Of a stretch of DNA of 64,000 nucleotides, positions 997 through 56,588 are shown in pieces. Numbering within the stretch: the stretch's first letter is position 1; each line of letters begins with the position of its first letter. The notes beneath the pieces were generated by a model. That model was not told the DNA's origin and searched no databases. It was given only the letters and a program-made list of their open reading frames with translations. The stretch covers positions 310,001 to 374,000 of the forward strand of contig NZ_LOKW01000001.1 in assembly GCF_002211305.1 (NCBI RefSeq), in the 5' to 3' direction. This DNA is from Rhizobium sp. R634. GTDB lineage: Bacteria > Pseudomonadota > Alphaproteobacteria > Rhizobiales > Rhizobiaceae. Both the position numbers and the translations under genes were made by a program.

Positions 997-1949
997 GCTT
1001 CGTCCTCCCTCTGGCGGTGGAACTGGAAGACCGTGACCGCGAGCACCAGGAAGAACAGTACAAGCGAAATCATGCTGGAATAGCCGAGATCCCAGGAAAT
1101 GAAGGCCTCGTTGTAGATGTGGTAGACGAGGACGAGCGTCGATGTGCCGGGGCCGCCCTGGGTGATCATGAAGATCTGATCGAAGACCTTGAAGGACTGG
1201 ATCGTCAGCATGACGGTGACGAAGAAGGTCGTCGGCCCGAGCTGCGGCACGGTGACGTGGATGAATTTCTGCCAGGAATTGGCGCCGTCGAGATCGGCAG
1301 CTTCATAGAGCTCGGCATTGATCCCCTGCAGGCCGGCCAGATAGATGACCATGTAATAGCCCATGTTCTTCCAGATGCCGAAAAGGATCACCGTCACCAT
1401 CGCCCAGTGGCGGTCGGCCGCCCATCCAGGCATGTTCTTCGGGTCAAGGCCGAGCGTGTAGAGGATCATGTTCACCGGTCCCATCTCGGGATTGAAGATC
1501 ATGTTCCAGACGACGGCGACGGCGACCAGCGAGGCGACATAGGGAAAGAACATCGCCGTGCGGAAGAAATTACGCCCCGCGATCTTCTGGTTGAGGAGGA
1601 CGGCGAGGCCGAGTGCGCAGAGCAGCGTCGCCGGCACCGAGGCGACCGTATAGATGATCGTGTTCCAAAAGGCCGCGACGAAGGCCTTGTCGTCGAACAG
1701 CCGCCAGAAATTGTCGAGCCCCGCGAATGTGATCGCATTCGAGCCGTCCCAGTGCATGAAGGCGAGCGCGAAGGCGAAGAGGATCGGACCGAGCGTGAAG
1801 ACGGCGAAACCGATGAAATTCGGCGCGATGAAGGAATAGGCGACGAGCGCGCTGCGAATCTTGCGCTGGCGCTTGGAGAGCGCCGTGACCTTCCGGCGCG
1901 GAGCTGCCGGGGCGCTATCCCTGGCGATGACCGAATTCGATATGGACAC
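993..1949 (-). CDS. Sugar ABC transporter permease (MalF/UgpA type)
   Basis: A roughly 318-residue permease of the MalF/UgpA type, first gene of the minus-strand operon. It has six predicted membrane segments and the EAA motif (ELYEAADLDGANSWQKFIHVTVPQL). An in-frame ATG exists at 1973, but a strong AGGAGG site at 1958-1963 sits 8 bases before a GTG at 1949 (residues VSISNSVIA), so I place the start there. The N-terminus is basic and soluble before the first membrane helix (ALVAYSFIAPNFIGF). It pairs with the MalG-type permease at 160-996. Cargo is inferred to be a uronic-acid oligosaccharide from the neighbouring hydrolase and lyase genes. Confidence 0.92.
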   Translation of the reverse strand: MSISNSVIARDSAPAAPRRKVTALSKRQRKIRSALVAYSFIAPNFIGFAVFTLGPILFAFALAFMHWDGSNAITFAGLDNFWRLFDDKAFVAAFWNTIIYTVASVPATLLCALGLAVLLNQKIAGRNFFRTAMFFPYVASLVAVAVVWNMIFNPEMGPVNMILYTLGLDPKNMPGWAADRHWAMVTVILFGIWKNMGYYMVIYLAGLQGINAELYEAADLDGANSWQKFIHVTVPQLGPTTFFVTVMLTIQSFKVFDQIFMITQGGPGTSTLVLVYHIYNEAFISWDLGYSSMISLVLFFLVLAVTVFQFHRQREDEA

Positions 1950-2079
1950 CGATGCTTCCTCCTGGTCGGGCATTCCGCTGGCGGCTTCCGGGCTTTTCTA
2001 ACCTAAATGCAGAGCCGTTCGGGCGGACGGGTGCCGCCTGTTCTTCCTCCTGCCAAGGACATAGCACATCTCCGGTATT

Positions 2080-2109
2080 GGTCAAACAAGTTCTGAATAG
2101 ATCATACAA
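2080..2109. promoter_or_regulatory. Tandem direct repeat in the divergent permease/lyase promoter region
   Basis: Two 10-base elements, GGTCAAACAA at 2080-2089 and GATCATACAA at 2100-2109, match at 8 of 10 positions with a period of exactly 20 bp, about two helical turns. They lie in the 244-bp gap between the divergent permease operon and the heparinase-like gene. This fits a regulator binding one DNA face with two dimers; no cognate regulator is visible in the window next to this locus. Inference only. Confidence 0.3.
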
Positions 2110-2193
2110 ATTTTATGGCGAGCGCCGAAAACATATGATAGGTGGAAATGGAGGCAGAGGCCCATCGATGCTTTTTCCGGTGTGGGGAGGGAC

Positions 2194-3987
2194 ATGTTCA
2201 GCGAGATTTCAGGCGCGTTGCCGCACGTCCTCGGCGATTTCACCCCGGAAGCCGTCTACTCCGACCGCGAGAGATGGAACGCGTTACCGCAGGCGGTGCG
2301 GGACGTGGTCGTGCACGACGCCGAGGCCACGCTTGCGCGAACATGGCCTCTGATCACGGCTTCGGATTACCGGGAATATACGACGACCGGCAATCGCTCG
2401 CGTTTCGAGGCGCTTTATTTCACGCGGCGGCGGATGCTCAACGATCTGGTGCTGGGCGAACTCGTCGAAGGGAGCGGGCGGTTCCTCCCCGGCATCGTCG
2501 ACGGCATCTTCCTGATCGCCGAGGAGAGCGGCTGGCAGCTTCCGGCGCATAATGCCTATGGGCGCGGCGGCCCGCGTCTGCCGCTTCCCGACAGTTCGCA
2601 GCCGGTCGTCGATCTCTTCGCCGCCGAAACGGCAGCCCTTCTGGCAACGATCGTCGCCTTGCTCGGCGATGCGCTCGACAGCATCAGCCCGGAGATCGCG
2701 GCGCGTGTGAAGCGCGAGATCGAGGCCCGCATCCTGACGCCCTATCTCGGCCGGCATTTCTGGTGGATGGGCAACGGCGCGGAGCGGATGAACAACTGGA
2801 CCGCCTGGATCACCCAGAACGTTCTGCTGACCGCCTTTTCGCTGAAGACCGATCAGCCGGCGCGCCGCGCCGTCACCGAAAAGGCGCTCGGCAGCCTCGA
2901 TGCCTTTCTGAAGGACTACGCCGAGGACGGCGCCTGCGAGGAAGGCGTGGTCTATTACCGCCATGCCGCACTCTGCCTGCACGGCGCGCTGACCGTGCTC
3001 GACAGCGTTGCGCCCAGCCTGTTCGACAGGATCTGGCGGCAGCCGAAGATCCGCAACATGGCCGAATATATCGCCCACATGCATGTGGCCGGCCGCCATT
3101 ATATCAACTTCGCGGATTCCTCCGCGGTGGTCGAACCCTGCAGCGCGCGCGAATATCTGTTCGGCAAGGCTGTTGGTTCCGAGATGCTGGCCGCCTTCGC
3201 GGCAGCCGACCGGGCGGCAGCCGAGAGCCCGCACCTGCCGGCGGAATGGAACCTCTGGTATCGCGTGCAGGAACTGCTGACCGGGCCGGCAATTCCAAAG
3301 ACCGAGCCGAATCCGGTGTCCGGGCGGGATATCTTCTATCCCGGCATCGGCCTGTTCGTCGCCCGCGACGGGCAGTTTTCGCTCGCGGTCAAGGGCGGCA
3401 ACAATGGCGAAGGCCACAATCACAACGATGTCGGCAGCGTGACGCTCTACAAGAACGGACGTCCTTTCCTGATCGATGTCGGCGTCGAGACCTATACCGC
3501 CAAGACCTTTTCGCCGCGGCGCTACGAGATCTGGACGATGCAGTCGGCCTATCACAACCTGCCGACTTTCTCCGGCGTCATGCAATCCGCCGGCGACGCC
3601 TTCGGCGCTAGCGACGTCGAGGTCGAATTCGGCGAGGCGCGCGCGCGCATATCGCTCGAAATTTCAGGCGCCTATCCTGAGGAAGCGCAACTGCGCAGCT
3701 ATCGGCGCACGGTCTCCCTGCTGCGTGGGCGCCATGTCGAGATCGTCGATGCCCATGACGGCGACCAGCCGGCGGTCCTGTCGCTGATGGCGTGCGTCAC
3801 GCCTGTTATCACCGAGAACAGGATCGATCTCGCCGATCTCGGCAGCATCTTTGTCGACGGCGCTGGCGAAATCGAAGTCGACGAGATCGAGGTGAATGAC
3901 GCCAGGCTGAGATCGGCCTGGCCGGAGAAGCTCTATCGGCTGCGCCTGCCGTTCGCCGGCAAGTGCCTGAGATTGCAGATAAATTGA
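2194..3987 (+). CDS. Heparinase II/III family protein (putative cytoplasmic polysaccharide lyase)
   Basis: A protein of about 597 residues in the heparinase II/III superfamily: an N-terminal alpha/alpha toroid (residues ~20-370) followed by a beta-sandwich domain (~380-597). Visible signatures are MNNW at 199-202 and EGVVYYRHA at 250-258 in the toroid, and GHNHND at 406-411 leading into LIDVG, the family's C-terminal block. Enzymes of this fold cleave uronate glycosidic bonds by beta-elimination, leaving 4,5-unsaturated sugars. There is no signal peptide, unlike periplasmic lyases, so it should act on imported oligosaccharides. A GTG at 2182 is also in frame, but it overlaps the GGGGAGG ribosome-binding site, so ATG 2194 is preferred. 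It is divergent from the permease operon and followed by a discoidin-like gene. Substrate is unknown. Confidence 0.85.
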   Translation: MFSEISGALPHVLGDFTPEAVYSDRERWNALPQAVRDVVVHDAEATLARTWPLITASDYREYTTTGNRSRFEALYFTRRRMLNDLVLGELVEGSGRFLPGIVDGIFLIAEESGWQLPAHNAYGRGGPRLPLPDSSQPVVDLFAAETAALLATIVALLGDALDSISPEIAARVKREIEARILTPYLGRHFWWMGNGAERMNNWTAWITQNVLLTAFSLKTDQPARRAVTEKALGSLDAFLKDYAEDGACEEGVVYYRHAALCLHGALTVLDSVAPSLFDRIWRQPKIRNMAEYIAHMHVAGRHYINFADSSAVVEPCSAREYLFGKAVGSEMLAAFAAADRAAAESPHLPAEWNLWYRVQELLTGPAIPKTEPNPVSGRDIFYPGIGLFVARDGQFSLAVKGGNNGEGHNHNDVGSVTLYKNGRPFLIDVGVETYTAKTFSPRRYEIWTMQSAYHNLPTFSGVMQSAGDAFGASDVEVEFGEARARISLEISGAYPEEAQLRSYRRTVSLLRGRHVEIVDAHDGDQPAVLSLMACVTPVITENRIDLADLGSIFVDGAGEIEVDEIEVNDARLRSAWPEKLYRLRLPFAGKCLRLQIN

Positions 3988-3994
3988 AAAGTTA

Positions 3995-4042
3995 GAGCAT
4001 GATGTTGTCCGAAAACCGCTTACAGTTTTCGGCATCATGCTC
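3995..4042. repeat. Palindromic intergenic repeat (rhizobial type)
   Basis: A 48-base element with outer arms GAGCATGATG (3995-4004) and CATCATGCTC (4033-4042) and inner arms CCGAAAAC (4009-4016) and GTTTTCGG (4025-4032) around an 8-base loop. Elements with these arms are, from general knowledge, widely scattered in Rhizobium and Sinorhizobium genomes. It sits between two co-directional genes, just before the ribosome-binding site (4044-4050) of the second, so in mRNA it could form a hairpin that affects stability or expression of the downstream gene. Confidence 0.75.
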
Positions 4043-4056
4043 CGAGGAGGCCGAAC

Positions 4057-4905
4057 ATGGAATTGACGCTGAAGATCGTGGATGCCGATGGGTTCGTGCT
4101 GGCAAGCGCCACCGGGCGGGACGAGACTTTTCTCGTCTATCGCCAGAACTATCGCGACGGCGACTGCGTCGTCGTCGAGGCTTCCGAGCCCGGCCATGTC
4201 TTCCTCGCGCTCGATAGCGCAATCCCTCCCGCTTTGGTCTATATCAGGGAAAGCGCCTATTCGCTCGCCGTGCCCTTCGGCGACAAGCGCAAGTCCTATT
4301 CGCCGAACGCCTTCAAGGGCGATATCCACCGACTTTCGGTGCGCAGCGCGCGGCCCGACGAACGCGCCCAACGGCGCAATCTCGCTTTGAACCCCTGGGA
4401 CGATCACGCCAACCGGGCGCTCTTTCCGCATGCCCGCGCCAATGTGGAAACCCGCGGCGAAGCGGTCTTTGCCGCGCGCAACGCCATCGACGGCGAAAAA
4501 GCCAACGACAACCACGGATTCTGGCCCTATACGAGCTGGGGCATCAATCGCGATCCCAAGGCCGCGCTGACGGTGGAATTCGGCCGGCCCGTTCGGATCG
4601 ACGAGATCGTCTTCTACATCAGGGCTGATTTCCCGCATGATTCCTGGTGGGAGCAGGCAAGCGTCACCTTTTCGAACGGTGAAACCGCCGCATTTCCGCT
4701 GGTGAAATCCGGTGCCGCGCAGCGTTTTCAGATAGAGCCTTGCACCGTCGAATGGGTGGAACTGCACGGGCTTATCAAGGCCGAGGACAGCTCGCCTTTT
4801 CCGGCGCTGACGCAGATTGAAATCTGGGGGACGGAGGCGCTCGGCGCTGCGGCCGTCGCTGCCGAAGATCAGGCCGGTCACGCCGCTCTTTCTCTTCCTC
4901 TATGA
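4057..4905 (+). CDS. Discoidin (F5/8C)-like carbohydrate-binding protein of unknown function
   Basis: A 282-residue protein whose start is set by GAGGAGG at 4044-4050, six bases before the ATG. Residues ~1-105 look like a beta-rich domain (ELTLKIVDADGFVLASATG); residues ~125-270 resemble an F5/8-type C (discoidin) sandwich, with NAIDGEKANDNHGFWPYTSWG, an alternating strand pattern (LTVEFGRPVRIDEIVFYIRADF) and a terminal strand ending in IEIWG. Such domains bind sugars. There is no signal peptide, which is unusual for a carbohydrate-binding domain and suggests that it works in the cytoplasm beside the heparinase-like enzyme, perhaps as an accessory subunit. Its last 6 bases overlap the end of the convergent regulator gene. 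No catalytic motif recognised. Confidence 0.7.
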   Translation: MELTLKIVDADGFVLASATGRDETFLVYRQNYRDGDCVVVEASEPGHVFLALDSAIPPALVYIRESAYSLAVPFGDKRKSYSPNAFKGDIHRLSVRSARPDERAQRRNLALNPWDDHANRALFPHARANVETRGEAVFAARNAIDGEKANDNHGFWPYTSWGINRDPKAALTVEFGRPVRIDEIVFYIRADFPHDSWWEQASVTFSNGETAAFPLVKSGAAQRFQIEPCTVEWVELHGLIKAEDSSPFPALTQIEIWGTEALGAAAVAAEDQAGHAALSLPL

Positions 4906-5910
4906 ACCCAATGCCGGCCTCGGCCGCGCCGCGCTCGGCGGGCTCTCATGCAGCCGGTTCCACGCGCGGCGCAACTGCCGGGCAGAGCCAAAGCCGGCGC
5001 GCATTGCCACGGCTTCCATATCCAGCCGCGAGCCAGCGAGCATCTCGCGGGCGAGAGCCACGCGCATGCGGTTGACGAAATCCGTGACGCTCATGCCGGT
5101 CTGCTCGTTGAACAGCCGCGAGAGGTTCCGCGGGCTGGCGCCGCTGAGGCGCGCCAGCGAGGCGACCGACCAGTCACGAGTGGGGTCGGCGGCCACCGCG
5201 TCCTGTGCACGATGAATGACAGGGTGGATATGGTTACGGCCTTCGAGCCAGGGCGAAAGCTGCGGGTCCGAGCCGCCGCGCCTGAGATAGACGACGAGAT
5301 ATCGCGCCACCGCTAGCGCGCAGGCATGCCCCGCCGCTTCGGCGACGATATGCAGCATGAGGTCTATGCCGGCGGTGATGCCGGCGCTCGTCAGACGCTC
5401 GCCGTCCTCGACATAGAGCCGGTTGTCCCGGATGCGGGCGGTGGGCGCGAGCCTCGCGAGATCCTCCATGCAGCCGTGATGCGTGGTGCATTCGCGGCCG
5501 TCGAGCATCCCGGCCTCGGCGGCGAGCAGGGCGCCGGAGCAGATCGAGACCAATCGAATCCCCGGACGGATGGCGCGCTTCAGCCACGCGACGATGGCGG
5601 CCTGCGCGGCGCGCTCCTGCTCGTCCCAGGGACGGTTGTTCTCCATCGGCGCGTCGGCGCTTCCGGCGATGACGACGAGCGCCTGATCGGGCAGGTGCTC
5701 CGGCAGGGCGGCGACGCCGGTGACGGCAAGGCCGATCGAGCTGCCGACCGTTGCCGACGGGCCGATATAGGCGACGCTGAAGCGCACCGCCCGCTGTTCG
5801 AGATTCGCCTTGCGCAGCACTTCGATCGGGCCGGCGACGTCGAGCAGCAGCACGCGCGGCGGCACGACGACGAAGACGGAGATATCGAAGGGCTGCGCGA
5901 CGTCCGTCAT
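4900..5910 (-). CDS. GlxA-family transcriptional regulator (DJ-1/PfpI domain plus AraC HTH)
   Basis: A 336-residue regulator with an N-terminal DJ-1/PfpI-like domain (~10-190) and a C-terminal AraC double helix-turn-helix (~230-325). The nucleophile-elbow cysteine is present at C124 (VSICSGALLA), followed by the usual TTHHGCMEDLA. The AraC part is clear (DWSVASLARLSGASPRNLSRLFNEQTG; MRAGFGSARQLRRAWNRLH). Related regulators include GlxA and the ArgR/CdhR group that control amine or amino-acid catabolism. It overlaps the upstream isochorismatase-fold gene by 4 bases, so the pair is one operon and the hydrolase is a likely target. The effector is unknown. Confidence 0.9.
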   Translation of the reverse strand: MTDVAQPFDISVFVVVPPRVLLLDVAGPIEVLRKANLEQRAVRFSVAYIGPSATVGSSIGLAVTGVAALPEHLPDQALVVIAGSADAPMENNRPWDEQERAAQAAIVAWLKRAIRPGIRLVSICSGALLAAEAGMLDGRECTTHHGCMEDLARLAPTARIRDNRLYVEDGERLTSAGITAGIDLMLHIVAEAAGHACALAVARYLVVYLRRGGSDPQLSPWLEGRNHIHPVIHRAQDAVAADPTRDWSVASLARLSGASPRNLSRLFNEQTGMSVTDFVNRMRVALAREMLAGSRLDMEAVAMRAGFGSARQLRRAWNRLHESPPSAARPRPALGS

Positions 5911-6473
5911 GCGGCGAGCTGCTCAGCACGCCCCGCCAGCGCCTGTTCGACGGTGGCGATCCTGGCGAAACGGCCCGACAGGACCAGTTCCGTGCGGCCG
6001 CGGATTTCACCGGCGCTCCATGTGCGTCCCGCCGCGTCGGTCATCGGAAAGGTCAGCGTCGCTTCGCCGACATAATCGACCTGGTAGCCGAGATCCGATG
6101 CGTGGCGGGTCGTGGTCTCGCAGCATTGTTCGGTGCGGATGCCTGAGACGATGATGCGACGCACGCCATTCTCGGTCAGCCAGACGTAGAGTCCGGAGTC
6201 GACGAGAGCGCTGTGACGGCTCTTCCTGAAAGTCGCGCCGGGGGCAATCCTGAGCGGGGCGAGCGTCCTGACGAAGCCCGAGCTTTCCGAAAACGGCCCG
6301 CTTCCATCGACATGGAAGATTTGAATGACGGGTATCCCGCGCGCCGCCGCGCCGTCGATCAGCGCCTGCTGACGATCGATATAGGCGGATGCGAGGCTTT
6401 CATCCCAATAATCGCGCTGACGGAAGGACTCCTGAGCGTCGATGACGAGAAGGACGGTATCATGGCCGGACAT
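5907..6473 (-). CDS. Isochorismatase-family cysteine hydrolase
   Basis: A 188-residue cytosolic hydrolase of the isochorismatase superfamily, about the usual length for a single-domain member. The catalytic triad is visible: D12 (VIDAQESF), K84 (FRKSRHSAL) and C117 (GIRTEQCCETT). Members hydrolyse amides or vinyl ethers such as nicotinamide, N-carbamoylsarcosine, peroxyureidoacrylate or isochorismate; the sequence does not tell which. It is first in a two-gene operon with a GlxA-type regulator (4-base overlap), which suggests a small inducible detoxification or amide-catabolism unit. Confidence 0.9.
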   Translation of the reverse strand: MSGHDTVLLVIDAQESFRQRDYWDESLASAYIDRQQALIDGAAARGIPVIQIFHVDGSGPFSESSGFVRTLAPLRIAPGATFRKSRHSALVDSGLYVWLTENGVRRIIVSGIRTEQCCETTTRHASDLGYQVDYVGEATLTFPMTDAAGRTWSAGEIRGRTELVLSGRFARIATVEQALAGRAEQLAA

Positions 6474-6679
6474 TTCTTGCTCCGTGGATGTTGATCATGA
6501 ACACCATATTCGGCGATCCCTGGACAGAGGAAAATGCATGCGCCGGACAAATAGCGGACACTTCGCGCCATTCATGGTGGAGAGCGGTCCGTTACCGCGA
6601 GCGGCGGGCGATAGCGAATGTTGTCGGCCACCCATGCGCCCGCTTCCGCGAGCCCCTCCGCACGTGCTAAGGGGATCGG

Positions 6680-7348
6680 ATGCGACTGCTTGTGGTGGAG
6701 GACAACAAGGATCTGGCGGCCTGGCTGGGCAAGGCCCTGCGGCAGGCGCAATATACGATCGACGTTGCCCATGACGGCGAAGACGCGGAACATCTGCTCA
6801 AGGTGGCGGAATATTCGGCGATGATCCTCGATCTTTCGCTGCCGAAGCTTGACGGATTGACGCTCCTGAAGCGGCTGAGACAATCGGGCAACAAGCTCCC
6901 GATCATCATCCTGACCGCCAATGCGAGCCTGGACGGCCGCGTGGCGGGGCTCGACAGCGGCGCCGACGATTATCTCGCCAAGCCCTTTGAAATCGCCGAA
7001 CTTGAAGCCAGGATCCGCGCGGTGGTGCGCCGCGGGCAGGACCGGGCATCGTCGGAGATCACCGTCGGCAACCTGCGTTTTTCCGGCGGCACGCGGCAGT
7101 TCTTCATCGAGGGCGAGCCGCTGCAATTGACGCCGCGCGAATATGCCGTTCTCGAGCAGCTGGTCATGAAGGTGGGCAACACGGTCTCGAAGGCCGCCCT
7201 TTCCGAAAGCGTTTTCGGTTTCGACGACGAGGCGGATCCGAGCGCCATCGAAATCTATGTCCACCGGCTTCGAAAGAAGCTCGAGGCCAGCTCCGTGCAG
7301 ATCGCGACGTTGCGCGGCCTCGGCTATCTCCTCAGACATGTTCAGTAG
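6680..7348 (+). CDS. OmpR-family response regulator (TctD-like)
   Basis: A 222-residue two-domain regulator: receiver domain (1-~115) with acidic pocket E7/D8, phosphoacceptor D51 (ILDLSLP), T79-type switch residue (IILTANA) and K of LAKPF; then a winged-helix DNA-binding domain (~125-220, LTPREYAVLEQLV). It reads like TctD-type regulators that control tricarboxylate uptake. Its last 11 bases overlap the start of the histidine kinase gene, so the two are translationally coupled. No tricarboxylate transporter (tctCBA) is seen beside it; the nearest transporter, at 8949-11769, is convergent, so the target is open. Confidence 0.95.
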   Translation: MRLLVVEDNKDLAAWLGKALRQAQYTIDVAHDGEDAEHLLKVAEYSAMILDLSLPKLDGLTLLKRLRQSGNKLPIIILTANASLDGRVAGLDSGADDYLAKPFEIAELEARIRAVVRRGQDRASSEITVGNLRFSGGTRQFFIEGEPLQLTPREYAVLEQLVMKVGNTVSKAALSESVFGFDDEADPSAIEIYVHRLRKKLEASSVQIATLRGLGYLLRHVQ

Positions 7349-8738
7349 CGCCTTCAGCAAGAGCGTCGCCGCCATCGGCCGGCTCAGCCAGAGCCTCAGG
7401 GTGCAGTTGCTTTCCCTGGTGCTGCTGACGCTGTTCGGCGCGATCGCCTTCAATCTCTACGACAGCTTCTGGTCGGCCGACGCGACGGCGAAACTGGTGA
7501 CGGACCGCACGCTCCTGGCTTCGGCCCGCGTCATTGCCGAGGCGGTGCGCGTCGACGAGGGAGGCAATGTCCAGGTCGATGTGCCGCCCGCAGCGCTCGA
7601 GATGTTCGATACGGGGTTCGGCGACCGCGTCTTTTACCAGGTGATCACCGCGTGGGGCAATCTGGTCAGCGGCTTTCCCGACCTGCCGCTGCCGACGGCC
7701 CAGCGCGTCGGCGAGGATCGCGCCTTCCACGGTGCCGACGTGCGCGTCCTGATGCTCGACCATCCCGTCGTCGGGCTTCCCGATGACGGCACGATCTCCG
7801 TGACCGTCGCGGTGACGCATAACAGCCAGTATGCGATGCGAAGGCAGCTGTGGCTTTCGGATTTTTCGAAGCAGTTCGTGCTGGTCTTTCTTGCAAGCCT
7901 GGTGACCATACTCGGGCTGCAGCGCGGCCTTGCGCCGGCTCTGAGGCTGCGGGACGCGGTGCGGGAGCGCGGCCGCAACCGTCTCGATCCGTTGCCGCCG
8001 GAGATGGTGCAGAGCGAGTTGCGCCCGCTCGTCCACGCGCTGAACGACCATATGGAGCGCGTGCAGAACCAGATGGCCGCACAGCGGCGGTTCGTATCGA
8101 ATGCGGCGCATCAGCTCAGAACGCCGCTGGCGCTGATTTCGACGCAGGCGAGCGTGGCGGCCCGCGAAGGCGATGTGGCGCGCCGCGACGAGGCGCTTGC
8201 CGCGCTTCGCACCAGCACCAGACAGATTTCGCGCCTCGCCGGTCAGCTCCTGACCTTGTCGCGGGCCGAGCCCGGGAGCCGGCGCCCGCGCAGCGACGTA
8301 ACCGATCTCAGCAAGGCCGCCCGCGAAATATTGGAAGCGCATGCCGAAGAGGCGCTGAAACGCAACATCGATGTCGGCCTGGAAGCGGACGGCCCCGTCA
8401 CCGTCGAGGGCGACGGCACCATGCTGCGCGAATTGCTGGTCAACCTCATCGACAACGCCATCCGCTACAGCGGTGCGGATGGACGGGTGACTGTCTCTGT
8501 CAGGCAGGCGGACGGAAGCGCGGTCGTGACCGTGGAGGACAGCGGTCCGGGCATTCCCGAAGGCGAGCGCGAACAGGTCTTCGAGCGCTTCTACCGGATC
8601 ATGGGAACCGAAAGCGAGGGAAGCGGCCTCGGTCTTGCGATCGTCCGCGAGGTCGTCGAAGGGGCCGGAGGTTCGGTATCGCTCGGCGATGCAAAGGGCG
8701 GCGGGCTCATCGTGACGGTGCGGCTGCCGCTTGCTTAG
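7338..8738 (+). CDS. Sensor histidine kinase (TctE-like)
   Basis: A roughly 466-residue inner-membrane kinase. The open frame extends to 7257, but ATG 7338 gives a proper N-terminus: a short cytoplasmic tail, first membrane helix at ~22-40 (VQLLSLVLLTLFGAIAF), a periplasmic sensor domain of about 140 residues, and a second helix near 180-195 (VLVFLASLVTILGL). Then come a HAMP-like linker, the H-box with H258 (FVSNAAHQLRTPLALI), N-box (ELLVNLIDNAIRY), G1 (VEDSGPGIP) and G2 (GSGLGLAIV). It should phosphorylate the regulator encoded just upstream. The periplasmic domain type is that of TctE-like kinases, so an organic-acid ligand is plausible but unproven. Confidence 0.94.
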   Translation: MFSSAFSKSVAAIGRLSQSLRVQLLSLVLLTLFGAIAFNLYDSFWSADATAKLVTDRTLLASARVIAEAVRVDEGGNVQVDVPPAALEMFDTGFGDRVFYQVITAWGNLVSGFPDLPLPTAQRVGEDRAFHGADVRVLMLDHPVVGLPDDGTISVTVAVTHNSQYAMRRQLWLSDFSKQFVLVFLASLVTILGLQRGLAPALRLRDAVRERGRNRLDPLPPEMVQSELRPLVHALNDHMERVQNQMAAQRRFVSNAAHQLRTPLALISTQASVAAREGDVARRDEALAALRTSTRQISRLAGQLLTLSRAEPGSRRPRSDVTDLSKAAREILEAHAEEALKRNIDVGLEADGPVTVEGDGTMLRELLVNLIDNAIRYSGADGRVTVSVRQADGSAVVTVEDSGPGIPEGEREQVFERFYRIMGTESEGSGLGLAIVREVVEGAGGSVSLGDAKGGGLIVTVRLPLA

Positions 8739-8812
8739 GCGAGGCGCCTCCATAAAAAGCGCTGGATCTGACGCCCAGGAACTGGCTTGATGGCACTCCT
8801 CACTCTACCCGG

Positions 8813-8856
8813 CGTCATCCTCGGCCTTGTGCCGAGGGACAAGCCCGAGCATGACG
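8813..8856. repeat. Palindromic intergenic repeat
   Basis: Outer arms CGTCAT (8813-8818) and ATGACG (8851-8856) enclose a tight hairpin with CCTCGGC (8819-8825) and GCCGAGG (8831-8837). The core resembles a repeat family common between genes in rhizobia and relatives. It lies downstream of the histidine kinase stop, in the gap between convergent genes. Confidence 0.6.
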
Positions 8857-8881
8857 AAAGGGAAGTTCGCTGACCTTGCGA

Positions 8882-8915
8882 TCAAAAGAAAAGGCCGGGC
8901 TTCGCGCCCGGCCTT
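8882..8915 (-). terminator. Rho-independent terminator of the NitT/TauT-type transporter operon
   Basis: A 10-bp perfect stem, AAGGCCGGGC at 8891-8900 and GCCCGGCCTT at 8906-8915 with a 5-base loop. Read on the minus strand it is followed by a T-rich tract (TTCTTTTGAT). It lies 33 bases past the permease stop at 8949 and also separates the convergent kinase gene. Confidence 0.85.
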
Positions 8916-8948
8916 CCCTCGATCTGCCTTGGGAGGAAGCAGATCCGA

Positions 8949-9830
8949 TTATTGCGCGTCGAGGTGCTGCTGCGGCCGCCACTTCGCCAGGCGGTTCTCG
9001 ATCAGCGTCATGATGTATTCGGCAACGAGTGTGACGACCATGACGAGGAGGATTGCCGCGAACATGCCGGCGGCGTCGAAGGTGCCCTTGGCGATCGAGA
9101 TTAGCTGGCCGATGCCGAAGCGGGCGCCGACGAATTCGCCGACGATGGCGCCGATGATCGCAAAGCCGAAGGAGACGTGGAGGCTCGCGAAGATCCAGCT
9201 CATCGCCGAGGGAATGACGACCGTGCGGGTTACCTGCCAGTCCGAGGCTCCGAGGATGCGGGCATTGGCGATCATGTTGCGGTCGGCTTCGCGCACGCCC
9301 TGGAAGGCGTTGGCAAAGACGACGAAGAACACCATGATGAAGGCGAGCGCCACCTTGGACGGCAGGCCGAGGCCCATGATCATGATGAAGATCGGCGCAA
9401 GCACCACGCGGGGGATCGAGTTGATTGCCTTGATGTAGACGGAGAAGATATCCGACAGGAAGCGGTTGCGGCCGAGGCCGATGCCTACGAAGACGCCGGT
9501 GATCGAGCCGGCGAAGAAGCCGATCAGCGCCTCCTCCATCGTCACCCAGAGATTATACCAGAGCGACCCTTCGGTGGTGCCCTCGGTTGCCCATTCGTAG
9601 AGGCGTTCAAGGACGCCGCTCGGGCTCGAATAGAAGAACGGATCGATCCAGTTCATGTTGGATGAGAGTTCCCACATGCCGATCACGAAGACCAGGATGG
9701 CGATCTGCCAGAAGCGCACCAGCATGTTGCGCCGGCGTATCGCCTTCATTGCGGAGGCTTCGATCTCGGCATCCGACGTGCCCGGGCGAAACAGGGTGGC
9801 CGAACCGGCCTCGAAAGTCGTGTTTGCCAT
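8949..9830 (-). CDS. ABC transporter permease, NitT/TauT (SsuC) type
   Basis: A 293-residue permease of the nitrate/sulfonate/taurine class. The N-terminal ~35 residues are soluble, followed by a first membrane segment (QIAILVFVIGMWEL) and the transport core with five more segments; the EAA-type loop is near residues 190-210 (READRNMIANARILGASDWQV). This class usually works as a homodimer with a single permease gene, which matches this locus. It is the third gene of the minus-strand set (binding protein, ATPase, permease), 13 bases after the ATPase stop-to-start junction. The cargo is not evident; sulfonates, nitrate, pyrimidine precursors or aromatic acids are all possible for this class. 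Confidence 0.93.
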   Translation of the reverse strand: MANTTFEAGSATLFRPGTSDAEIEASAMKAIRRRNMLVRFWQIAILVFVIGMWELSSNMNWIDPFFYSSPSGVLERLYEWATEGTTEGSLWYNLWVTMEEALIGFFAGSITGVFVGIGLGRNRFLSDIFSVYIKAINSIPRVVLAPIFIMIMGLGLPSKVALAFIMVFFVVFANAFQGVREADRNMIANARILGASDWQVTRTVVIPSAMSWIFASLHVSFGFAIIGAIVGEFVGARFGIGQLISIAKGTFDAAGMFAAILLVMVVTLVAEYIMTLIENRLAKWRPQQHLDAQ

Positions 9831-9843
9831 GATATCCTCCCCC

Positions 9844-10662
9844 TCAGGCCGCTTCGCTTGCGCGGCGGTAGCTGGTCTCGACCTCTTCGCGCAGGTCCTC
9901 CCAGATGGTCTTGCAATAGTCGATGAAGCTCTGCTCGTAACGGATCTCCGACACCACGCGCGGGCGCGGAAGATCGATCGGATAGACCGACTTGACCGTG
10001 GCCGGGCCGGCGGTCAGCACATAGACCTTGTCGGCAAGCGCGACGGCCTCTTCGAGATCGTGGGTGACGAAGACCACCGATGCCTTGCGCTCCGCCCAGA
10101 GCTTCAGCAGTTCCTCGTGCATGACGGTCCGGGTCTGCACGTCGAGTGCCGAGAAAGGCTCGTCCATCAGCAGGATCTCAGGTTCGTTGATGAAGGTCTG
10201 CGCCAGCGAGACGCGTTTGCGCATGCCGCCGGAGAGTTGATGCGGATAGTGATGCAGAAACTTCGACAGGCCGACGCGGGCCAGCCAGTCGCGGGCGCTC
10301 TGTTCCGCCTCGGCGCGCGACTTGCCGCGAAACAGCGGCCCGGCCATGACGTTGTCGATGACGTTCTTCCAGGGAAAGAGCGCATCAGTCTGGAAGGCGA
10401 AGCCGACACGCGGATCGATGCCGGTGATCGGCCCGCCCATCAGGCGGACTTCTCCGGCGGAGGGGCGTGCAAGGCCCGTCACGAGGTTGAGCGTCGTCGA
10501 CTTGCCGCATCCTGTGGGGCCGACGACGGCGACGAACTCGCCGCGGGCAACCGTCATGTTGAAATCGCGCAGCGCAGTGAGCGACTTGCCTGTGGGCGAG
10601 ACGAAGCGGCGGCTGACATTGATCAGCTCGATCGCCGGGACCTGTTTGTTGTCCTGTTGCAT
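9844..10662 (-). CDS. ABC transporter ATP-binding protein, NitT/TauT (SsuB) type
   Basis: A 272-residue cytoplasmic ATPase with Walker A at ~48-55 (GPTGCGKST), signature LSGGMRKRV, Walker B ILLMDEPFSALD and switch His (FVTHDLEEA). The M-R in place of Q-R in the signature is typical of the nitrate/taurine class. A GTG at 10695 is in frame, but ATG 10662 with an upstream AGGTATC site is the more natural start and fits the family's N-terminus. It powers the permease at 8949-9830, with the binding protein at 10756-11769. A strong hairpin separates it from the binding-protein gene. Confidence 0.94.
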   Translation of the reverse strand: MQQDNKQVPAIELINVSRRFVSPTGKSLTALRDFNMTVARGEFVAVVGPTGCGKSTTLNLVTGLARPSAGEVRLMGGPITGIDPRVGFAFQTDALFPWKNVIDNVMAGPLFRGKSRAEAEQSARDWLARVGLSKFLHHYPHQLSGGMRKRVSLAQTFINEPEILLMDEPFSALDVQTRTVMHEELLKLWAERKASVVFVTHDLEEAVALADKVYVLTAGPATVKSVYPIDLPRPRVVSEIRYEQSFIDYCKTIWEDLREEVETSYRRASEAA

Positions 10663-10717
10663 GGTGATACCTGAGGCGTGCTTGAGGGCGCGCACGCAAT
10701 GCCCATGATCGAACGGG

Positions 10718-10746
10718 GCCGCTCCCGCTTGGGAGCCGGGAGCGGC
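10718..10746 (-). other. Intercistronic hairpin between binding-protein and ATPase genes
   Basis: Perfect 10-bp arms GCCGCTCCCG (10718-10727) and CGGGAGCGGC (10737-10746) with a 9-base loop, located in the 93-base gap after the binding-protein stop. There is no T-run. Hairpins in this position commonly protect the upstream mRNA from 3' decay, or reduce read-through, and so give more binding protein than membrane components. That role here is inferred. Confidence 0.55.
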
Positions 10747-10755
10747 GCGGCTGAC

Positions 10756-11769
10756 TTACTGGACGTTCTTGACGAATTCCGTCGTGTAGGTCTTGGAAAG
10801 GTCGATCTGCTTGCCCTTGACGTTCTTGGAGAACTCCGAGAGCACGGCAAGCACGGTCTTCGGGCCGTCTTCCGGCATGACGCCATCGGCCGTGAACATG
10901 CCCTTGCCCTCTTCGAGAGCCTTGATGTAGCCGTCCTTGTCGCCGACGTAGAAATCCTTCGGCATCTTGTCGGCGATTTCGGCGGCCGAATGCGTGTTGA
11001 TGTATTTCAGCGTCTTGACGAAGGCGTTGGCGAGCTTCTGCGCCTCTTCCTTGTGCTCATCGACCCAGGAGGTTTCCATGTAGAGCGAGGCGGCCGGATA
11101 GGTGCCGCCGAGCGCCTGACGGGTCGCTTCAACAGTGCGCATGTCGACGAGAACGCTCGCTTCGCCTGTCTTGATCATGCGAGAGATCGTCGGCTCCGTC
11201 GTCATGCCGGCCTGGATCTGATCCTGCTGTATGGCGGCGATGAAGGTGCCGCCGGCGCCGACGGGAATGGTGACGACATCGCCGGGCTTCAGGCCGGCCT
11301 TGGAGGCCATGTAAAGGGTCAGGAAATTCGTCGAGGAGCCGAGACCGGTGACGCCGAGGCTCTTGCCCTTGAAATCGGCCGGCGACTTGATCTCCGGGTG
11401 TTTGCTCGAGACCATCTCGACCTCGCCCGGCGCCTGGCTGAACTGGACGATGGATTCGACGAACTTGCCCTTGGCCTGGAGATCCACACAGTGGTCGTAG
11501 AAGCCGACGACACCCTGGACAGCGCCAGCCAGCAACTGGTTTTCGGCATCGACGCCGGCGGCTTCGTTCAGAAGCTCGACATCGAGACCCTCGTCCTTGA
11601 AGTAGCCGAGGGATTCGGCGAGCTTGGCCGGCAGATAGATCTGCTTCTCATAGCCGCCGACCATGATGGTGATCTTGTCGGCCGCATGGGCGGCGCTGGT
11701 GGTCAGCGATGCTGCGGCCATGAGAGCGGAAAAAGCGGCGGTGTGAAAAAGGCTGCGTGAAGAACGCAT
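10756..11769 (-). CDS. ABC transporter substrate-binding protein (NMT1/SsuA type)
   Basis: A 337-residue periplasmic binding protein with a Sec signal peptide (~1-29, ending TSAAHA). The mature part begins with KITIMVGGYEKQIYLPAKLAESLGYF, the usual opening of NMT1/SsuA-type receptors, and has the class markers LLNEAAGVDAENQLLAGAV and GLGSSTNFLTLYMASKAG. It is first in the operon with the ATPase and permease, so it defines what is imported. The ligand cannot be read from sequence. The FCD-type GntR gene 249 bases upstream on the same strand is the likely regulator; such regulators often respond to small organic acids. Confidence 0.92.
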   Translation of the reverse strand: MRSSRSLFHTAAFSALMAAASLTTSAAHAADKITIMVGGYEKQIYLPAKLAESLGYFKDEGLDVELLNEAAGVDAENQLLAGAVQGVVGFYDHCVDLQAKGKFVESIVQFSQAPGEVEMVSSKHPEIKSPADFKGKSLGVTGLGSSTNFLTLYMASKAGLKPGDVVTIPVGAGGTFIAAIQQDQIQAGMTTEPTISRMIKTGEASVLVDMRTVEATRQALGGTYPAASLYMETSWVDEHKEEAQKLANAFVKTLKYINTHSAAEIADKMPKDFYVGDKDGYIKALEEGKGMFTADGVMPEDGPKTVLAVLSEFSKNVKGKQIDLSKTYTTEFVKNVQ

Positions 11770-52063: not shown

Positions 52064-53515
52064 ATGAGCATACGAAATCCGTCTCCCTCGTTATATAACG
52101 AGGATCTTGCACCCGCCGAAGAACGCAAATGGGGTGCATTCAGCATCTTCAACGTCTGGACGTCGGACGTTCACAGCCTATGGGGCTATTATCTGGCGGC
52201 GAGCCTGTTCCTGCTCTGCGGCAGCTTCGTGAATTTCGTCATCGCCATCGGCATCGGCTCCCTCGTCATCTTCGTCCTGATGAGCCTGGTCGGCAATGCC
52301 GGCGTGCGCACGGGCGTCCCCTTTCCGGTGCTGGCACGCGCCTCCTTCGGCACCTTCGGCGCCAACGTTCCGGCCCTGGTCCGGGCAGTGGTCGCCTGCT
52401 TCTGGTACGGCGCGCAGACCGCCGCCGCATCCGGCGCCATCGTCGCCCTGCTGATCCGCAACGAGAGCCTGCTCGCCTTTCACCAGAACAGCCACATGCT
52501 CGGCCATTCGACGCTGGAGCTGATCTGCTACGTCATCGTCTGGGCACTGCAGCTGCTGATCATCCAGCGCGGCATGGAAACGGTCCGCAAGTTCCAGGAT
52601 TGGGCGGGGCCGGCCGTCTGGATCATGATGCTGATCCTCGCAGTCTACCTGGTCGTTAAATCAGGCACTTTCTCTTTCGGTTCGGAAATCCCGCGTGACG
52701 TCCTGATCGAAAAAACCAAGGATGCCGGCGTACCGGGCGAACCCGGCTCGATCGCAGCGCTTGCCGCCGTCGCCGCCACCTGGATCACTTACTTCGCTGC
52801 GCTCTACCTGAACTTCTGCGATTTCTCTCGTTACGCGACGAGCGAAAAAGCGCTCAGAAAAGGCAATCTCTGGGGCCTGCCGATCAATCTTCTGGCCTTC
52901 TGCCTCGTTGCAGGTGTCACGACCACGGCTGCCTTCACCGTTTACGGCGAGGTGCTGCTGCATCCGGAAATGATCTCGGCGAAATTCGATAGCTGGTTCC
53001 TGGCGCTGCTTGCCGCACTGACATTCGCGGTCGCCACGCTCGGCATCAACGTCGTGGCGAACTTCGTCTCGCCCGCCTTCGACTTCGCCAACGTCTTCCC
53101 GCGCCAGATCAACTTCAAGCGCGGCGGATATATCGCCGCGCTGATCGCTCTCGTGCTCTATCCGTTTGCGCCCTGGGAAACGGGTGCGGCGCATTTCGTC
53201 AACTTCATCGGTTCGACGATGGGGCCGATCTTCGGCATCATGATGGTGGACTATTACCTCATCAGGAAGAGCCAGCTGAACGTCGAGGCGCTCTATTACG
53301 AGAATGGCGAGTTCCGCTTCCAGAACGGATGGCACGGCAATGCCTTCATCGCATTCGCGGTGGGCGCGCTCTTCTCCTCGATCCTGCCGACCTTCACCTC
53401 GATCCTGCCGGACTGGTGGGGCACCTACGGCTGGTTCTTCGGCGTTGCCATCGGTGGAGCGATCTATTTCGTGCTGAGAATGGGCGCCCGGCGCAATCCA
53501 GCCTTCGCGTCCTGA
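52064..53515 (+). CDS. NCS1-family nucleobase:cation symporter
   Basis: A 483-residue membrane transporter with about 12 helices. The N-terminal signature is NVWTSDVHSLWGYYLAASLFLLCG, and further family parts are RASFGTFGANVPALVRAVVACFWYGAQTA and YFAALYLNFCDFSRY. ATG 52064 follows GGGAGGG. NCS1 proteins import cytosine, uracil, purines, allantoin or hydantoins with H+ or Na+. No nucleobase-degrading gene is adjacent, so the substrate is open. A cognate regulator is not seen, but an inverted repeat lies upstream. Confidence 0.92.
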   Translation: MSIRNPSPSLYNEDLAPAEERKWGAFSIFNVWTSDVHSLWGYYLAASLFLLCGSFVNFVIAIGIGSLVIFVLMSLVGNAGVRTGVPFPVLARASFGTFGANVPALVRAVVACFWYGAQTAAASGAIVALLIRNESLLAFHQNSHMLGHSTLELICYVIVWALQLLIIQRGMETVRKFQDWAGPAVWIMMLILAVYLVVKSGTFSFGSEIPRDVLIEKTKDAGVPGEPGSIAALAAVAATWITYFAALYLNFCDFSRYATSEKALRKGNLWGLPINLLAFCLVAGVTTTAAFTVYGEVLLHPEMISAKFDSWFLALLAALTFAVATLGINVVANFVSPAFDFANVFPRQINFKRGGYIAALIALVLYPFAPWETGAAHFVNFIGSTMGPIFGIMMVDYYLIRKSQLNVEALYYENGEFRFQNGWHGNAFIAFAVGALFSSILPTFTSILPDWWGTYGWFFGVAIGGAIYFVLRMGARRNPAFAS

Positions 53516-53612: not shown

Positions 53613-56588
53613 TTACCCCTGCGCCGGCCCGTAGAGGCCGAGCTGCTCGAGAAGCGCGCGCTGCCGGTCGGCATTTTCGACCAGCAGGCTGGTATAACGC
53701 TCGACGATCCGGTCGCGGTGATCCTGGTCGGAAACGGCCGAGAGCGCACCGGTGATCGCCGCGATCTTTTCTGAAGTCTGGCGCAGTTCTTCCAGAAGCT
53801 CCGACTTGCGGCCGGCTTCCGCGACCACCTGCTTCGTCACCTTGCCGATGCCGGCCGGCGTGCGGCTGCCGCCGGACACGTAGCCTTCCGGCAGGTCGCC
53901 CTTGAGATTGACGACCGACTTGAGGCGGATGACGTCGAAGATCTGGTCGACCGCCTGCCTGGCGCCGGTCACCCGCGAGGGGTGGTCGGTGTCGGCGGCG
54001 GCATGCGGCAGGAGTTCCAGCTTGCCCTTGTGGCGCGCTTCGAGCGGCAGGTAAGGCAGCATCGGCCCGCTGAGTGCACCGGTCGCGGCATCCCTGAAGA
54101 GATCGGCGTCGATCGCGGCATGGGCGATCTTGCCGGAGGCAAGCGCTGCATCGAGCGCATCGGCATCGACGACTTCGCCGCGGTCGTAATTGACCAGCAC
54201 CGCGCCGTCCTTCATGGCGCCGAGCACCTTCGCATCGACGGTCCCGGCATTGGAGTAGGTGCCCGTCGATGCGTCCAGGCGGCCGAGGCCGATATGGACA
54301 GAGAGAACGTCGGCGCCGCTAGCCGCTTCGACCGGGCTTGCGGCATAGTCGAAGCCCTCAGCCTCGATCCAGCGCTTGTGATGCTCGCGGGCATAGATCG
54401 CCACCTTCATGCCGAAGGCCTTGGCGAGCTTGGCGACTTCGCGCCCGATATTGCCGTAGCCGAGAACGGCAAGCTTGCGGCCCTCGAGCTTCGCCGTCGG
54501 AAAATCCTTCAGCTGGCGGCCGGTATCGAAATCGCCGCCGGCGACCATCCAGTGAAGCCGGTCGACCGGCAAGTCGGGCACGACCTTCAGGATCGCTTTC
54601 ACAGCCATCTGGGCGGTCGCGCGGCTGTTGATGCCGGGCGTGTTCATCAGGGGCGCATCGCCACCCTCGCCATTGCCGCCGCCCCAGGAGGCCGAGCCCA
54701 TATTGCCGGTGCCGGCGCCGATGCGCACGCCGCCGAGCGGGAAGACCGAGCCCTTCGGAATGAAGGTCGCCGCCGCAATCAGCGCGTCATACTGGCCCTT
54801 GTCGGTCTGCGGCAGGATCTCCGCCTCGGTGCTGAGGTTCGGCTGATAGAAGAAATGGATGCGGCCCTTTTCGAGCGCCGAACGATCACCGAGCGGGCCG
54901 AGATGGAAGCTGCCGCCCTTCTCCTCGATATAGGCCTTGACCTCGCTATAGTCGGGCTCGCCGTCGGCGCCGAAGCGCAGGCCCACCAGATCGGCGATCA
55001 GCACCGTATAGGCGCGGTTCGGGTCGTCCTTGCGCACGGCGCCATCGGCCTTGACGGGGGCCTCGAAGGTCACGCCCTGTTTTGCGAGCTCCTCTTCGAG
55101 CACGACGATCTTGGCGCGCAGATAAGCATATTGCAGGTTTTCCAGGAGTGCCACGACATCTTCGGGCTCGCGGATGCCGCCGACCCAGGCGCGGTAGTCG
55201 CCGGGAGTGCCGGGGAAGGCGTTGACATAGCGGGCCGCATCGAGGCCGGGCTCGTATTCGCCATTCGGATGGGTGATGCCCTCATAACCGAGCAACTGCT
55301 TGGAACGGGCGATGATGCGGGCGTGGATGCCGGCATCGGTGATGCCGTCGTCCTCGACCTTCAGCAGCGTCACGGCGGCGCCACGGCGCTCGGCATCGGT
55401 GACGGTCAGCGACAGCAGCGGATGCGACTTGACCCATTCGTCGATCACGGCGCGGTTGGCGGCGGAGCGGCGGTTGAGATCGACGACGGAGCCGACCCGG
55501 GCTTCCGACTGCAGCAGGCCGAAGGTGGTCTCGGCAAAGGCGAGCGCGCTGTAGGTGTTGATGACGCCGCCGAGCATGCGGTCTTCGCCGGCATCGTAGA
55601 ACGGACCGGCATCGACCGAGCGCTTGGCCGAAAACGGCTGCCGCGGATCGATCGGCGGGGCGATCTTCAGCTGGCGCGGGATCGCCCAGGCCGGATCCTG
55701 CTGGTTCTTCTCGATCAGCGTCAAGGCATGCGGCGTGAAGGAGGCGACGAAATAGCCTGAAATGCCGCCGATCGCCTTCTGGAACGGCATGAACAGGCAG
55801 CACTTCGCCATCACGGCGCTGACCAGTTCAGGTTCCCACGGCATGGCGCCGAGCATCGAGGTGGCGTCGAACACGGCATGGCGGTTTGCCGGATTGCCGT
55901 CGAGCCAGTTCAGGAGTTCGTGGATCTCGGCGCTGGTATAGGCATTGGCCCCCGTCGTCTCGTGGCCGACGCCGACGAAGATCGACACGCCGAGGCTGGA
56001 CAGTTCGGCCGCCGTCGGGATCACGCCCTCGGAGGCGGCGAAATGGATGCGGCTCTCGCAGCCCTTTTCGGCGAAGCGTTGCATCTCGATCAGCTGGGTC
56101 GCCCACGACTGGCGGAAGAAGCCGGCCGCCTTGGACGGATCGCTCTCCGGCCGCGGCGTATCGACATAGACGCGCTGGCCGGCGTCGTTGGCATTCATCA
56201 GGTGCTGGATGCAGACGGTGAAACCGCTATGGCCGCCGCCGAGACCGACCGCCATGCGGTTCTCCTTCGGGAAGCCGAAATAACGATGGATCGCCCGCAT
56301 CATGTCGGTCAGGATCTTGTCGGCCGGATAGCCGCGATGCATGCTGCGGGAAATCTCGGCCGTGGTGAAGCCGCCGATATCGTTGCCCCGGTCGTCGAAC
56401 TTGCGATAGGTCTTCTCGATCCAGGCGTCGAAGGCGATGCGCCGCAGGCGGCTATCCACTTCGTCGGTCGTCGCATCGGTGATCGGCCCGACGCCGAAGA
56501 ACGGGTTGGACGGCAGTTTCGGCGCGCCCGACGCGGTCTGTCGAAGGGCGTTCAATCGCTGTTCCTGCATCTGCGCGATATCTGTCAT
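53613..56588 (-). CDS. Fused SerC-like aminotransferase / SerA-like 2-hydroxyacid dehydrogenase
   Basis: A ~991-residue two-enzyme fusion from ATG 56588 (frame opens to 56690). Residues ~1-480 are a class-V, PLP-dependent aminotransferase of the phosphoserine aminotransferase type: GLGGGHSGF (115-123), HETTGANAYTS, D241 (VFDATSMLGAMPW) and the Schiff-base lysine K271 (FMPFQKAIGG). Residues ~525-890 are a D-3-phosphoglycerate dehydrogenase-like domain: NTPGINSRATAQMAV (648-662), NAD motif GYGNIG (709-714), R802 (NYDRGEVV) and H861 (LLPHAAADT). The usual active-site Glu of the DVFE segment is not evident (IDADLFRDAATG). A ~90-residue helical tail follows. In serine synthesis the two steps are consecutive. 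This could be a bifunctional serine enzyme or act on another 2-keto acid. Confidence 0.85.
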   Translation of the reverse strand: MTDIAQMQEQRLNALRQTASGAPKLPSNPFFGVGPITDATTDEVDSRLRRIAFDAWIEKTYRKFDDRGNDIGGFTTAEISRSMHRGYPADKILTDMMRAIHRYFGFPKENRMAVGLGGGHSGFTVCIQHLMNANDAGQRVYVDTPRPESDPSKAAGFFRQSWATQLIEMQRFAEKGCESRIHFAASEGVIPTAAELSSLGVSIFVGVGHETTGANAYTSAEIHELLNWLDGNPANRHAVFDATSMLGAMPWEPELVSAVMAKCCLFMPFQKAIGGISGYFVASFTPHALTLIEKNQQDPAWAIPRQLKIAPPIDPRQPFSAKRSVDAGPFYDAGEDRMLGGVINTYSALAFAETTFGLLQSEARVGSVVDLNRRSAANRAVIDEWVKSHPLLSLTVTDAERRGAAVTLLKVEDDGITDAGIHARIIARSKQLLGYEGITHPNGEYEPGLDAARYVNAFPGTPGDYRAWVGGIREPEDVVALLENLQYAYLRAKIVVLEEELAKQGVTFEAPVKADGAVRKDDPNRAYTVLIADLVGLRFGADGEPDYSEVKAYIEEKGGSFHLGPLGDRSALEKGRIHFFYQPNLSTEAEILPQTDKGQYDALIAAATFIPKGSVFPLGGVRIGAGTGNMGSASWGGGNGEGGDAPLMNTPGINSRATAQMAVKAILKVVPDLPVDRLHWMVAGGDFDTGRQLKDFPTAKLEGRKLAVLGYGNIGREVAKLAKAFGMKVAIYAREHHKRWIEAEGFDYAASPVEAASGADVLSVHIGLGRLDASTGTYSNAGTVDAKVLGAMKDGAVLVNYDRGEVVDADALDAALASGKIAHAAIDADLFRDAATGALSGPMLPYLPLEARHKGKLELLPHAAADTDHPSRVTGARQAVDQIFDVIRLKSVVNLKGDLPEGYVSGGSRTPAGIGKVTKQVVAEAGRKSELLEELRQTSEKIAAITGALSAVSDQDHRDRIVERYTSLLVENADRQRALLEQLGLYGPAQG

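Follow-up and report, generated by a model that had tools for sequence, protein, structure and literature searches.

We determined that a single gene of Rhizobium sp. R634 encodes a SerC-like aminotransferase fused to a SerA-like dehydrogenase, and we hold, with slightly better than even confidence, that the product is a bifunctional catabolic enzyme that turns an amino acid (L-serine most likely) into hydroxypyruvate and then into D-glycerate. With PLP on Lys271, the N-terminal half (N-half) would transaminate this amino acid and release hydroxypyruvate, which the C-terminal half (C-half) would reduce to D-glycerate at the expense of NAD(P)H, the cofactor probably being NADPH. The source genome encodes a class II glycerate kinase at another place, and this enzyme would then yield phosphoglycerate. 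The module would therefore be a serine-cycle-like conversion of serine to glycerate, as opposed to the two opening steps of serine biosynthesis. The substrate, the cofactor, the direction and the transfer of the intermediate between the two sites are what we infer here.

The gene lies in the window, the 64,000-nucleotide stretch of DNA that was analyzed, as a single unbroken frame of 991 codons and a stop that runs on the minus strand from 56588 to 53613 (window coordinates); the plus strand contains stop codons across 53613-56588. The gene and its parts are as follows.

53613 to 56588, minus strand: whole fused gene, 991 codons and a stop; ATG start at 56588 (MTDIAQMQEQ), kept among relatives
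55065 to 56588, minus strand: N-half, aa 1-508, SerC-like class V PLP aminotransferase; Lys271, Asp241, Gln270, His84-Arg85 and Arg466 kept
53616 to 55028, minus strand: C-half, aa 521-991, SerA-like D-2-hydroxyacid dehydrogenase family and tail; GYGNIG 710-715, Ala733-Arg734, Arg803, His862
53616 to 53840, minus strand: helical tail, aa ~917-991, replaced by a kinase in the glycerate-kinase-fused form

A sequence-only reading had described one uninterrupted frame of ~991 residues, with FQKAIGG in a SerC-type half and GYGNIG, NYDRG and LLPH in a SerA-type half. The frame was confirmed and placed on the minus strand, which that reading had left unstated, and all four motifs were found in the 991-residue translation. 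The two assignments also held, the first by a predicted class V fold (Z 25.5 to 2fyf) and the second by a match to PF02826 (E 1.2e-28) together with a 2HADH fold. The aminotransferase domain extends over aa ~20-497 (structure matches ~19-497) and the dehydrogenase domain over aa ~525-906. A model of the whole protein gave a pLDDT of 81.7 and a pTM of 0.60 (41 sequences), and because of this pTM the predicted placement of the two halves relative to each other is unsure. Matches to both halves were present in all 80 relatives that were kept out of 135, at 58-98% identity. The match begins at residue 7 or earlier in 77 of the 80 and at residue 28 in L086, and two relatives (L036 and L085) are truncated where their contigs end. 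A frameshift or misassembly joining two genes is ruled out, since all 80 fetched relatives carry the N-half and the C-half. Compared with six close relatives, most codon changes are silent in the N-half and the C-half alike, suggesting that selection acts on both. Scanning for promoters and terminators gave no site on the minus strand, which carries the fused gene. Plasmid records that name the full-length fusion call it only 'NAD(P)-dependent oxidoreductase'.

The 80 relatives come from Rhizobium, Sinorhizobium, Mesorhizobium, Shinella, Paracoccus, Labrys, Kiloniella, Aestuariivirga, Oceanospirillaceae and others, and the spread is patchy: the full protein was found in 6 of 24 same-genus genomes and a separate C-half only in one more. 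The fusion is plasmid-borne in several rhizobia (e.g. pRL9). Additionally, a truncated N-part (aa 3-583) occurs on three Ensifer adhaerens plasmid records; the one inspected (L120:11998-13746) is annotated as a hypothetical protein and contains nothing of the fusion beyond this part. The C-half was found in 57 of 394 genomes of the family, at 61 places, and in 3 of 385 genomes sampled from the class. Of the open frames at these 61 places, 26 reach 967 codons or more (among them G643, which has no N-half match, and G577, which has an internal stop), 7 have 820-834 codons and 28 are shorter. In a tree of the C-half (90 rows after near-copies were dropped from 131, plus four outgroups with saturated branches) the kinase-fused rows form one group and the aminotransferase-fused rows need five label changes.

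Predicted folds were used for the N-half, as its profile found nothing among PDB sequences at E 0.01. Modeled alone (pLDDT 83.3, pTM 0.83, 33 sequences), it has a class V aminotransferase fold whose best structural match is the M. tuberculosis PSAT 2fyf (rmsd 3.0, 351 aligned), also ranked first by Foldseek. The next matches are alanine:glyoxylate aminotransferases (Z about 24), and the Sulfolobus serine:pyruvate aminotransferase reaches Z 22.4. The Pfam Aminotran_5 model does not match the N-half. NCBIfam gives a weak phosphoserine-transaminase match (aa 267-493, E 2e-13) that misses the equivalog cut-off, with 37.6 and 52.7 bits vs 448 or 477, and phosphoserine-transaminase families are the only ones matched by sequence in 33 of 33 members. 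The Schiff-base Lys (K271) and the PLP Asp (D241) are invariant across 33 rows. The N-half and the genome's own SerC align with an hhalign probability of 96% at about 24% identity and have H84-R85, D241, Q270, K271 and R466 in common; at this 24% identity the HYR of SerC falls on AFP within an insertion of the N-half. We take the catalytic and PLP roles of Lys271, Asp241, Gln270, His84-Arg85 and Arg466 to be those of SerC, in which the His-Arg and HYR pairs presumably serve the phosphate side. The N-half is thus like SerC (TIGR01365, NF002841) in its class V fold, Schiff-base Lys and PLP residues but larger (508 vs about 373-390 residues), with scores of 38-53 bits and no apparent alignment at the presumed phosphate-side HYR. 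It also differs in its occurrence: N-half matches were found in 4 of 398 phylum genomes (E 1e-15), the source genome included, always in a long fused frame and never unfused.

The C-half contains the only confident Pfam domain of the protein, the NAD domain at aa 687-827, and the Pfam list has no ACT domain. NCBIfam indicates a likeness to phosphoglycerate dehydrogenase at aa 648-888 (E 7e-20). The best scores are 76.3 bits for PGDH and, just behind it, 74.1 bits for glyoxylate reductase, and the SerA equivalog cut-off (TIGR01327) is missed with 71 bits vs 454. The structural matches are PGDH and glyoxylate/hydroxypyruvate reductases (Z about 24-25). The Arg of SerA that precedes SAT (IRSAT), which we take to bind the substrate, is lost, with Ala in 25, Thr in one and Val in one of 27 C-half sequences. 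R803, H862 and the Rossmann GYGNIG are kept, as expected of a D-2-hydroxyacid dehydrogenase. The catalytic triad of 2HADH enzymes is described in the available part of PMC6303947. No conserved Glu was found at aa 827-839 in the 27 sequences, and for this reason the activity of the C-half is presumed; D827 and D829 are invariant in this segment, and one might guess that either substitutes for the triad Glu. PMC6303947 also reports that SERA and other NAD-preferring 2HADH groups keep an Asp in the cofactor loop. This NAD-selecting Asp is absent in 27 of 27 C-halves and is replaced by A733-R734, invariant in 41 fusions and the 27 C-halves, and this replacement suggests that the C-half prefers NADPH. 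The C-half is therefore like SerA in its 2HADH fold, GxGNIG and the Arg and His of the triad, and unlike it in having no NAD Asp, no Arg before SAT, no conserved Glu and another C-terminal tail. It is like the GHRA, GHRB and GHRC types of reductase in fold, in the Arg of the cofactor loop and in its probable reaction, but it forms its own divergent family (18-24% identity to the listed structures) with a Gly-rich loop inserted at aa ~632-645 and without the Glu.

We infer that the C-half reduces hydroxypyruvate to D-glycerate from its links to glycerate kinase. In Pseudochrobactrum (L116:11953-14454) one frame of 834 codons encodes a relative of the C-half followed by DUF4147 and MOFRL, a class II glycerate kinase. 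The seven frames of 820-834 codons all belong to one genus, and the kinase was confirmed in the three that were fetched (L183, L184, L185). Among the 29 stand-alone C-half loci fetched with long flanks, eight have a glycerate kinase match, five of them forming one near-identical cluster (kinase 96-100% identical to the query, which itself comes from L117); L180 and L181 (kinase 70%) and L182 (57%, at a distance of some 740 nt) represent other types. The stand-alone C-half ends 3 nt before the kinase gene in L117 and L118 (Paracoccus versutus and Aminobacter), where the clusters also contain a class II aldolase and a TRAP transporter. For the window-type fusion, a full glycerate kinase gene begins 3 nt downstream, by its called start, in L031, and L018 has a partial match downstream. 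Within the fetched stretches no glycerate kinase was found in 78 of the 80 fused loci, in any of 12 additional fused loci (which in part come from those records too) or in 21 of the 29 stand-alone loci. The source genome has one MOFRL glycerate kinase, elsewhere than the fused gene. Characterized class II glycerate kinases favor D-glycerate, according to the available part of PMC2063504, which fits the isomer that a D-2-hydroxyacid dehydrogenase is expected to yield. Fusion or adjacency thus connects the aminotransferase with the reductase and the reductase with the kinase, as would be expected of a path from amino acid to keto acid, hydroxy acid and phospho-hydroxy acid, and the simplest members of such a path are serine, hydroxypyruvate and glycerate. 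Tartronate semialdehyde as the reduced substrate would also fit the aldolases that adjoin some stand-alone C-halves.

In Sinorhizobium/Ensifer the fusion is found beside a BCCT (betaine-type) transporter (10 of the 80 fused loci, all ten from this group), malate-CoA ligase subunits (9/80) and malyl-CoA-lyase-like and SGAT/BhcA-type genes (8/80), mostly with GlxA-type regulators as well. The earlier statement that no other serine genes are near agrees with the surroundings of the fused gene in the window, but these copies adjoin serine-cycle-type genes. The ligase beta subunit scores 725 bits, above its cut-off of 604. The best NCBIfam match of the aminotransferase is BhcA at 603 bits, below the cut-off of 650, and the lyase-like gene is also under its equivalog cut-off, which leaves 'serine cycle' a reasonable name for the cluster without making it certain. 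A second 2HADH was not found in the ten loci or in the examined part of 34 kb of one genome (L201-L202), which makes the fusion the candidate hydroxypyruvate reductase of the cluster. The probable chemistry is like that of the serine-cycle segment of SGAT, hydroxypyruvate reductase and glycerate kinase, as are these neighbors, but the fusion joins two steps in one polypeptide and its aminotransferase is SerC-type and not SGAT-type. The fusions of L045 (S. fredii, 1668-10970) and L015 (1602-10976) occupy the same slot and are only 71% identical while the lyase, ligase and aminotransferase genes are 93-96% identical, as if one version of the fusion had replaced the other in place. The available part of a study of rhizobia (PMC12628762) describes three strains, one of them a Sinorhizobium, without mtkA and mcl, from which the Sinorhizobium loci analyzed here differ.

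Three other explanations have to be weighed against the conversion of serine to glycerate. The same two steps might act on another amino acid and 2-keto acid (e.g. glycine/glyoxylate/glycolate, or an amino acid that is larger or comes from plants), with a C-half family that reduces a broad range of 2-keto acids. The varied neighbors of the C-half (DAO-type FAD oxidoreductases and RidA in L119, aldolases, serine-cycle-type genes), the fact that most fused loci have no glycerate kinase, and the frequent promiscuity of 2HADH enzymes noted in the available part of PMC6303947 are consistent with this. However, the kinase links occur in several unlike lineages, a fusion among them, and point toward glycerate as the product, so we consider another substrate unlikely. 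Because an SGAT/BhcA-type aminotransferase already adjoins the fusion in Sinorhizobium, a second serine aminotransferase looks redundant in those copies, which counts against the serine reading itself.

The identical chemistry could also run in reverse, with the C-half oxidizing D-glycerate to hydroxypyruvate and the N-half transaminating it to serine in a non-phosphorylated synthesis. SerC enzymes generally run toward the amino acid, and the N-half retains both the PLP residues and the class V fold; still, the NADPH-type loop favors reduction, the linked kinases would use up glycerate and a true serC and serA are present in the genome, which leaves this direction improbable. A separate search, as proposed earlier, found both genes adjacent to each other on another contig (serC 704 bits, serA 676 bits), and the fusion as the sole enzyme of serine synthesis is ruled out by them. 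The same pair counts against a genuine phosphoserine-pathway fusion that converts 3-phosphoglycerate to phosphoserine. Such a fusion would agree with the top NCBIfam matches (PSAT for the N-half and PGDH, barely above glyoxylate reductase, for the C-half), with the alignment of H84-R85 to the His-Arg of SerC and with the oomycete PGDH-PSAT fusion, in reverse order, of PMC2705460 (in its available part). Against it, the PSAT and PGDH models score 36-76 bits vs cut-offs of 404-477, none of the 27 sequences keeps the SerA Arg (Ala, Thr or Val instead), the NAD Asp and a Pfam ACT domain are absent and the SerC HYR is not kept in the alignment (24% identity). We regard this reading as very improbable. 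Of the two possibilities that the sequence-only reading had offered, a SerC-SerA channeling enzyme for serine biosynthesis is not supported, in view of the cofactor site, the lost SerA Arg and the glycerate kinase links. The other possibility, two repurposed enzymes with a different 2-keto/amino acid as substrate, gains support from the true serC and serA elsewhere and from the lack of a conserved Glu at the canonical site.

With confidence a little short of even, we tentatively propose a previously unrecognized serine-to-phosphoglycerate module whose hub is one family of NADPH-dependent hydroxypyruvate reductases, fused upstream to a SerC-derived serine aminotransferase in one lineage and downstream to glycerate kinase in another. 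If so, any two successive steps can be combined in a single polypeptide, and having both kinds of fusion renders the order of the pathway directly testable. If the conversion of serine to glycerate is correct, a SerC-type scaffold has been recruited from making serine to breaking it down, and rhizobia and some marine bacteria have a compact way of bringing serine into central carbon. A likeness to SerA and SerC is, as a caution, insufficient to assign serine biosynthesis. The superfamilies of both halves were already known; the fusion, its family and the kinase fusion were not recognized in the open-licence literature searched, in which only the oomycete PGDH-PSAT paper was recognized as describing a comparable fusion. 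As far as the available part of PMC2705460 describes it, that enzyme fuses the same two superfamilies but is eukaryotic, has the opposite domain order and is proposed for serine synthesis.

The neighbors in the window are uninformative, as the NCS1 permease, the RND pump and the chemotaxis receptor were matched in one, two and one of the 80 fused loci, each from the close relative L010 with an extra 40% RND match in L072. The NCS1 permease (52064-53515, plus strand) is convergent with the fused gene and allantoin-permease-like, at 228 of 620 bits and under the cut-off. On the Ti plasmid of Agrobacterium larrymoorei (L119:7212-13383) a stand-alone C-half follows RidA and three FAD oxidoreductases (two DAO-type, one GMC-type), as if oxidative deamination were used in place of the aminotransferase.
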